Shown: positions 24,655 through 25,962 of the stretch, piece by piece | Layout: every line of letters begins with the position of its first letter | Numbering within the stretch: the stretch's first letter is position 1 | Assembly (NCBI GenBank): GCA_031277315.1 | Contig: JAITMP010000040.1 | Coordinates: 1 to 64,000, forward strand | Reading direction: 5' to 3' | DNA from: Zoogloeaceae bacterium | GTDB lineage: Bacteria; Pseudomonadota; Gammaproteobacteria; Burkholderiales; Rhodocyclaceae | Length of the DNA stretch: 64,000 bases | Program-made: the position numbers and the translations under genes | The notes under the pieces: generated by a model | What the model saw: the letters and a program-made list of their open reading frames with translations, nothing else | Databases searched by the model: none | What the model was told of the DNA's origin: nothing

Positions 24655-24817
24655 CGCTGGGATTCCACTTCGTTCCATCCCAGCCTACGTCGCTCGGTAG
24701 GTTGGCGCTGAGCGAAGCGAAGCCCAACACCCGGAGCCGTTGTCATTCCGCGCGAAGTCGCGGAATCCATATGGCGGTGGATTCTGCGACTCCGCTTCGC
24801 TCCGTGCAGAATGACAA
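24655..24817. repeat. Composite of dispersed repeats, families A and C
   Basis: 24655-24688 is an A-like unit (GCTGGGATTCCACTTCG...), 24697-24728 a family A copy, 24740-24768 and 24780-24817 two family C palindromes (TGTCATTCC... and ...CAGAATGACAA). The whole 427-base gap 24639-25065 holds no gene; from 24818 to 25040 I see nothing distinctive. Confidence 0.8.
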
Positions 24818-25065
24818 TCTCGCTCGCTTGCGGGAGAGCGCCCCCGATCGGGTCGAGGGCAGGCTCTGCCCCCGGCTTCATCGGGGGGCCGGGGGAGAGG
24901 GCAAGCCGGGCGTTGCCTGCACGCAACGTTAACCTGCCGCGCCACGACAAAAAAACATGACAAATCCTGTCAGTTGGATTATCTTGCCGAAGTCCCGCTT
25001 TTTCCCGCGCAACAGAAAAGAAATAGCGCGGCTTTTCAACACCATTGAAGCAAGAGGAGAAACGC

Positions 25066-25122
25066 ATGAAACGCTTTTGTAATCAAGCAGTTAGTCCCCC
25101 CTCCCCCCCCCGCATGATCTAA
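25066..25122 (+). other. Leader ORF with strong ribosome site and poly-C tract (out-of-frame start of the outer-membrane protein)
   Basis: AAGAGGAGA lies 5 bases before ATG at 25066. The frame reads MKRFCNQAVSPPSPPRMI and stops at 25120-25122. Bases 25096-25111 are C6-T-C9. The frame of the downstream barrel protein is open from 25095 through this tract, so one extra C (or two fewer) would join this start to the protein and give about 238 residues. Confidence 0.75.
25096..25111 (+). repeat. C6-T-C9 homopolymer tract
   Basis: Six C, one T and nine C between a strong ATG and the signal peptide of an outer-membrane protein. Tracts of this length are prone to slipped-strand change. Confidence 0.9.
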
Positions 25123-25160
25123 GCCCTTGTAATCATTCCGCTTTTCCGCTTCTCCGGCGC

Positions 25161-25781
25161 GTGTTGCCGGTCGCAAGCGCGTTGCTTGTCTTCTCCCTCG
25201 TTTCCCCCGCAAATGCCGCCGATGTCGGCGACTGGACCGGTTTGCATGTCGGCGGCAACATCGGCTATGGCTGGGGCGATTATTCCGATTCCGTGTTACA
25301 GGCATCGGATGTGGATGGCAGTTTGGCCGGCGCGCAGATCGGTTACGACTGGCAGCTCGGACAAAACCACAACATCGTGCTCGGCGTCGAGGCCGATTTC
25401 AATTGGAGCGATATGCAGGACACTCTCAAGTCTCGGTACCCCCAGTACGATCTATTCGCCATCGGCGGTAACGGTGCTTTAGTGTCAATAAACGACACGT
25501 CCATTGATCTCGATTGGCTCAGCACAGTACGTTTGCGCGCGGGCGTTCTGCCCCGGCCCGACTGGTTGATCTATGCTACCGGTGGGTTTGCCTTCGGTAA
25601 CGTTAAGTATGCCAACTTCGGGTCGAGCAGAGGTGCGGGCTGGACGCTCGGCACTGGCACGGAATGGAAGTTCGCCCCCCAGTGGAGCGCCAAGGCCGAA
25701 TACCTGTATTTCGATCTCGGTAACACGGGGATTGACTTCGACGGGCATATTCTGCGCGTGGGCGTGAATTACCACTTCTAG
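25161..25781 (+). CDS. Outer-membrane beta-barrel protein, Omp25/31-like; probably phase variable
   Basis: 206 residues from the first in-frame GTG. Residues 1-20 are a hydrophobic signal core ending SPANA-AD. The mature part has alternating-residue strands of an 8-stranded barrel: WTGLHVGGNIGYGWGDY at the start, LAGAQIGYDWQLGQN, LRAGVLPRPDWLIYATGG, WSAKAEYLYFDLG and the terminal LRVGVNYHF with its final Phe, the signal for barrel insertion. GTG at 25161 has no ribosome site, and a signal peptide from it would lack positive charge; the upstream in-frame codons supply Arg-Arg (PLLRR). Translation therefore probably begins at 25066 after a frame change in the poly-C tract. Confidence 0.8.
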   Translation: MLPVASALLVFSLVSPANAADVGDWTGLHVGGNIGYGWGDYSDSVLQASDVDGSLAGAQIGYDWQLGQNHNIVLGVEADFNWSDMQDTLKSRYPQYDLFAIGGNGALVSINDTSIDLDWLSTVRLRAGVLPRPDWLIYATGGFAFGNVKYANFGSSRGAGWTLGTGTEWKFAPQWSAKAEYLYFDLGNTGIDFDGHILRVGVNYHF

Positions 25782-25827: not shown

Positions 25828-25962
25828 GAGTAGGCTGGGTTGAGCGCAGCGAAACCCAGCTTCGGCATGCTGGGATTCCACTTCGTTCTATCCCAGCCTA
25901 CGCCCTTCGTTCCATCCCAGCCTACGTCGCTCGATAGCTTGGCGCTGAGCGGCGAAGCCCAA
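25828..25962. repeat. Composite of dispersed family A repeats
   Basis: Three to four A-type units in a row: AGGCTGGGTTGAGCGCAGCG..., GCTGGGATTCCACTTCGTTC..., a shortened unit, and ATAGCTTGGCGCTGAGCGG...CCCAAC. They sit between the barrel gene and the end of ubiA, which are convergent, and may end both transcripts. Confidence 0.85.

Follow-up and report, generated by a model that had tools for sequence, protein, structure and literature searches.

Most known cases of phase variation through homopolymer runs come from host-adapted bacteria. The closest described systems are found in Neisseria, where pilC is described as carrying poly-C tracts within its reading frame (PMC5953494), opa as carrying CTCTT repeats in the region coding for the leader peptide (PMC3960869), and opc as carrying poly-C in its promoter (PMC3960869). 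A polycytidine tract is also described in the regulator gene mga of Group A Streptococcus (PMC10330708).

The gene described here lies at positions 25066-25781 of a 64,000-nucleotide stretch of DNA, referred to as the window throughout. It resembles pilC in that the length of a C run in the 5' portion of a gene for an envelope protein would set the frame, a likeness of mechanism only (PMC5953494), and it differs from pilC in that its type of leader DNA is common to unrelated genes and in that a Pfam search with its barrel frame returned nothing besides PF13505 (OMP_b-brl). With opa it shares a repeat placed between the start codon and a mature small barrel, again as a matter of mechanism only (PMC3960869), and the occurrence of several copies per genome, which we observed in genome G481 and, for the leader, in genome G908; the opa repeats are pentamers in one gene family, whereas here a single-base run stands in front of differing genes. 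The likeness to opc is poly-C control of an outer-membrane barrel, and OpcA (1k24) is among the fold matches of our model (TM 0.44 by query), but the promoter tract of opc tunes transcription, whereas the window tract lies behind the ATG. The locus would have poly-C slippage inside a gene in common with mga (PMC10330708), but mga is a regulator gene in a Gram-positive and comes with no barrel and no shared leader. Porin-family and outer membrane immunogenic proteins of the OMP_b-brl type have the same family match, eight strands and C-terminal Phe as the window protein; a long N-terminal extension was present only in the homologue P0003 among the 16 homologue sequences compared. In a literature search that scarcely covered subscription journals, we found no publications on a poly-C leader common to unrelated genes of different genera, none on phase variation in Rhodocyclaceae, and none joining phase variation with metagenome-assembled genomes, simple sequence repeats or homopolymers.

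Results

As assembled, the predicted barrel gene lies out of frame with its start codon

An earlier note on this DNA had placed a ribosome site and an ATG ahead of a poly-C tract, with a barrel protein out of frame behind it. Both statements are borne out: a Shine-Dalgarno-like AGGAG (25055-25059) is present six bases 5' of the ATG at 25066, and the frame opened by this ATG (25066-25122) runs as assembled for 18 codons across the tract to a TAA at 25120-25122, while the barrel is in another register. All features are on the plus strand. Ahead of the tract lies the block TTTGTAATCAAGCAGTTA (25076-25093), which is common to the poly-C leaders of another genus, g231 (16/18 bases), and to contig C28 of G481. 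The tract itself, our proposed switch, is C6-T-C9 at 25096-25111 (C6 at 25096-25101, T at 25102, C9 at 25103-25111). It is followed by a stretch (25112-25160) that would form the n-region of a long signal sequence in the barrel frame, by a predicted hydrophobic core of a signal peptide (25161-25217) ending in SPANA and then AD, and by a predicted eight-stranded outer-membrane beta-barrel including its stop codon (25218-25781), as judged from PF13505, a structural model and fold matches.

The barrel frame is without a stop from 25095 to 25778, in agreement with what the earlier note had read; a TAG sits just 5' of it at 25092-25094, and its own stop is at 25779-25781. Both wrong registers run into stops within the first 11 post-tract bases (TGA at 25115, TAA at 25120), and the numbers of open codons behind the tract are, by register, 1, 222 and 2, so that a single register reaches the barrel domain. 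The homopolymer run sits between the start codon and the barrel domain, as expected of a simple-sequence contingency gene. As a separate observation, a 47-base direct repeat flanks the barrel gene on both sides (upstream copy 24668-24714, downstream copy 25905-25951, 96% identical, both plus strand), and its core occurs in the window solely around this gene.

The barrel frame matched PF13505 with 75.9 bits (cut-off 28.7) over profile positions 2-175 of 175, and the model, for which 44 proteins picked among 120 of the 306 matches were aligned, has eight predicted strands and a mean pLDDT of 88.0, with the lowest confidence over the N-terminal 20 residues (the signal peptide). The C-terminal residue is Phe, and the best solved-fold matches are OmpA-type and other small barrels, including NspA and OmpX. 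Barrel matches were found in 3 of the 60 genomes searched, namely the window's own and two of its genus (40% and 35% identity); genus-wide, distant matches were present in 2 of the 15 other members. This rarity, together with a G+C content of 57.8% in the barrel frame vs 64.2% in the window, would suit a recently acquired copy that is permanently broken and decaying. Against decay, which we consider extremely improbable, stand the 222 codons that are still open behind the tract and the strong family match; that the gene is a recent arrival may nevertheless be the case.

A homologue reads in frame from the upstream ATG

The two nearest proteins, P0002 (C28) and P0003 (C47), were deposited as Methylobacillus sp. 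MAG proteins and are both encoded in one genome, G481. P0003 (284 aa) has its start at the ATG that corresponds to 25066, likewise preceded by AGGAG, and reads in frame into the barrel, carrying C5-T-C3 where the window carries C6-T-C9. Its extension before the hydrophobic core is CNHSAFPLARR, compared with CNHSAFPLLRR in the window's barrel frame, and the Arg-Arg that the earlier note had seen ahead of the core is indeed there in the sequence. In P0002 the tract is a pure C11, and GCATGATCTAA comes after it as in the window; the gene is shifted against its ATG by the same offset as the window gene, and the gene caller placed its start after the tract. The tract thus differs among the three homologues (C6-T-C9, C11, C5-T-C3), but since the species differ this is divergence and not polymorphism. 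Because P0003 reads the same extension in frame from its ATG, comparison of the sequences indicates that the DNA between tract and barrel most likely codes for protein and that the upstream ATG is most likely the real start. When the extension was sought in other proteins (35 candidates), only P0003 itself was recovered, and matches to P0003 in the order were found in 12 of 399 genomes including the window's own, at 27-39% identity apart from its own genome.

Automatic gene calling had taken the GTG at 25161 as the start of the window gene. Translation from this GTG or from the TTG at 25164, with the upstream ATG frame acting as a leader peptide, would agree with the choice of such starts by gene callers for P0001 and P0002 and with the conservation of both codons in G481:C28. 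We nonetheless regard it as very unlikely: there is nothing Shine-Dalgarno-like in the 25 bases 5' of the GTG, as had been noticed before, the Arg-Arg would be lost, and the in-frame P0003 has GCG at this place and starts at the upstream ATG.

Two further observations concern the G481 genes. The signal sequence of P0003 (L074, residues 25-47), with its long n-region and ARRALLTGAALALF, looks Tat-like, which we take to be odd for an outer-membrane barrel. The C11 homologue lies between 64-base inverted repeats (84%; L114 7-70 and 1044-1107), which may bear on how this gene moves.

The DNA just behind the tract is conserved beyond the protein

DNA identity between the window and G481:C28 was 46% upstream, 82% from the ATG to the tract and 82% in the signal core; behind the tract it reached 96% (47/49), as against 72% (394/549) in the mature barrel. 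Among multi-codon positions with the same residue in both, the codons were identical at 15/15 post-tract positions vs 87/131 elsewhere (Fisher p = 0.006). The same comparison between the window and C47 (P0003) gave 9/11 vs 65/116, which was not significant (p = 0.12). The 47/49 identity and the 15/15 identical codons suggest, as far as sequence comparison goes, that the post-tract DNA itself is under constraint or was recently exchanged; 23 bases of it, sought in viral contigs, were not found there.

Conservation of post-tract DNA beyond the protein between the window and G481:C28 would also be expected if slippage were programmed, that is, if the ribosome or RNA polymerase slipped at the C run at a fixed rate and produced some full protein from unchanged DNA. 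The C run would permit such a slip with full re-pairing. We return to this reading below, with the frames of the other leaders, and we consider it distinctly improbable.

The composite tract, not the C9 run, is unusual

A C9 run alone is unremarkable, with 0.40 expected in the window and one present in 30 of 100 shuffles, so we rejected the notion that C9 is rare in itself; the composite C6-T-C9, with at most one mismatch allowed, occurred in 0 of 100 shuffles. On both strands of the window we counted one C7, no C8 and one C9. In the whole genome (2.41 Mb in 50 contigs, 98.4% complete), seven places have runs of exactly eight Cs and three have runs of at least nine: the barrel tract, a C12 where a GntR-type gene begins, and a run of 52 at a contig end. 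The 52-C run (contig C18) was rejected as a third switch, and is probably an artefact, because it stands at the very end of its contig.

The C12 (G000:C46:45685-45696; L010 2186-2197) lies at the 5' end of the frame for a GntR/UTRA regulator and is in frame from an ATG at L010:2152. Because homologues align solely behind the C12 and the gene caller also starts there, it may be a second switch or may lie within an untranslated leader. It was not counted with the leaders described below, as it has 9/18 of the block bases, and no relatives of the gene were found in the 15 other members of the genus at E 1e-40. We also noted CRISPR-like direct repeats, CGGTTCATCCCCGCTCGCGCGGGGAACG, adjoining a C8 run in the same genome (L032, G000:C46:81376-84385).

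The pre-tract block recurs at poly-C loci of another genus

We searched 161 bases of the leader against 395 genomes of the window's family and obtained matches in 20 of them. Retained were the window's own locus and four loci of g231 (two in G908, one each in G773 and G792), which align over the tract side; the other matches (19-45 bases, elsewhere in the query) were taken as chance. At the four g231 loci, TTTGTAATCAATGAGTTA or a near form of it stands directly before the C run. The pattern AATCAAnnAGTTA followed by up to two bases and five Cs was present in 4 of the 395 family genomes, and its reversed control in 0 of 395. A looser motif found five leaders in 80 contigs (516 kb) of G908, where reversed, complemented and 20 shuffled motifs found none. 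We compared 49 distinct loci with at least eight Cs: 11, the window and G481:C28 among them, agree with the block at 15-18 of its 18 positions (offsets of up to six bases allowed), and the other 38 at 10 or fewer. Since the g231 members were found by the block, independent support comes from G481:C28, to which the barrel had led us, and from the specificity of the AATCAAnnAGTTA pattern.

In leaders of the g231 type, the TTTGTAATCAAnnAGTTA block or a near form of it lies within two bases (once four) of the C run; the window has it two bases from its tract and matches the g231 form at 16/18 positions, and G481:C28 matches at 15/18. The start codon precedes the block by 18 bases in 10 of 12 g231 leaders, in which the block is read as F-V-I-N-E-L or similar. 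Neither this spacing nor this peptide was found in the window or in G481:C28, where the distance from ATG to block is 10 and 11, respectively, and the block is in another frame. Because the block is read in differing frames, the common element is, on this sequence evidence, the DNA block and not a leader peptide.

Three more C runs in G908 (of 9, 14 and 13 bases) are without the block (L144 1205; L154, minus strand, 1114; L161, minus strand, 2250). Ten loci were searched for known RNA families, with four matches at E values no higher than 0.5, none of which identifies the leader as such a family: a 6S RNA in L100 (35-216) is away from the tract, and the three others are below their cut-offs. 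One of these three, a CsrB match on the other strand of L127 (22.2 bits vs a cut-off of 71), overlaps a leader and was taken as chance.

Different genes stand behind the leaders, in different frames

Behind eight of the 14 leaders compared for frame, one register has more than 200 open codons. Four of these are in frame: a second barrel-like protein behind C11 in G908:C174 (PF13505 at 27.8 bits, narrowly missing the cut-off of 28.7), a protein behind C9 in G773:C73 that has Big_2 domains and matches DUF6273 below threshold, an FkbM methyltransferase behind a short run in G908:C252b (L130 5170-6243, minus strand), and a protein of no family behind a short or interrupted tract in G908:C260. The other four are out of frame: the window gene, G481:C28, a DUF3617 protein in G908:C147, and a protein of no family in G908:C97, for which the OFF call is unsure because a downstream ATG of its own could be its start. 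We omitted C252a from this count because the start of its gene seems to lie further on, and C248, C250, C218, C220 and G792:C37, which have shorter frames or reach a contig end. Where the tract has at least nine uninterrupted Cs and a long frame behind it (n = 6), two are in and four are out of frame, close to the two thirds that random lengths would put out of frame. Where a long frame follows a short or interrupted tract (G908:C252b, C260 and P0003), it is in frame in every case.

All four out-of-frame loci have one common offset. This counts against slippage in the DNA, as stutter in sequencing or assembly, or a programmed slip, would also give it. If the homopolymer had been miscounted, the assembled tract length would be wrong and the cells would carry an open gene; stutter biased uniformly in one direction would produce such a single offset. 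Homopolymer artefacts do occur in the window's genome, as at its 52-C contig end, and a contig ends within 100 bases behind the tract in 2 of the 14 leaders (G792:C37 and G908:C220), so assemblies handle such tracts badly. However, C9 is short for a miscount of this kind in short reads, the same offset recurs across different genomes with tracts of 9 to 15 Cs, and tracts about as long are in frame in G773:C73 (C9) and G908:C174 (C11). We therefore think a miscount unlikely. The latter two long in-frame tracts also speak against programmed slippage, for which the common offset of 4/4 would otherwise be an argument, and a fixed slippage site would not need such varied tract lengths and interruptions.

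Discussion

We conclude that the gene at 25066-25781 quite probably encodes a phase-variable outer-membrane protein, whose expression would be switched by slippage in its C run and which the assembly would have captured in an OFF register. This was also the reading of the earlier note, and it has gained support from the in-frame homologue P0003, from the homologue with C11, and from the pre-tract DNA shared with other poly-C loci. In the proposed mechanism, the run would gain or lose Cs through slipped-strand mispairing at replication. In one register the ribosome would pass the tract into the signal peptide and the barrel (ON), while in the other two translation would halt at once behind the tract (OFF), and the assembled sequence of the window would represent one of the latter. 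The structural pieces are present in the DNA, and from them we infer that the number of Cs would change during growth; the occurrence of the pre-tract DNA at poly-C loci in another genus agrees with past variation in tract length.

The leader, consisting of the ATG, the pre-tract block and the C run, could be a module of common descent that was later joined to different genes. More tentatively, we suggest as a possibility that it is portable: a leader of ribosome site, start codon, TTTGTAATCAAnnAGTTA block and poly-C might have been duplicated, moved between species and joined in differing frames to unrelated envelope genes, the elastic C run serving as a joint that matches any frame, so that a gene would become switchable by acquiring the leader.

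Beyond the earlier note, the analysis adds the G481 homologues, the 47/49 identity behind the tract, and a leader shared with unrelated genes. Gene callers may start behind the tract, as they did for the window gene and for P0002, and may therefore miss the switch; searching further assemblies for the shared block could bring such genes to light. The locus is a likely case of phase variation in a Burkholderiales-type genome, with its closest homologues in the assembly of a methylotroph, and its switch region resembles a module that unrelated genes from two families have in common. If this is true, phase variability could be acquired by leader exchange and would not need to evolve gene by gene.
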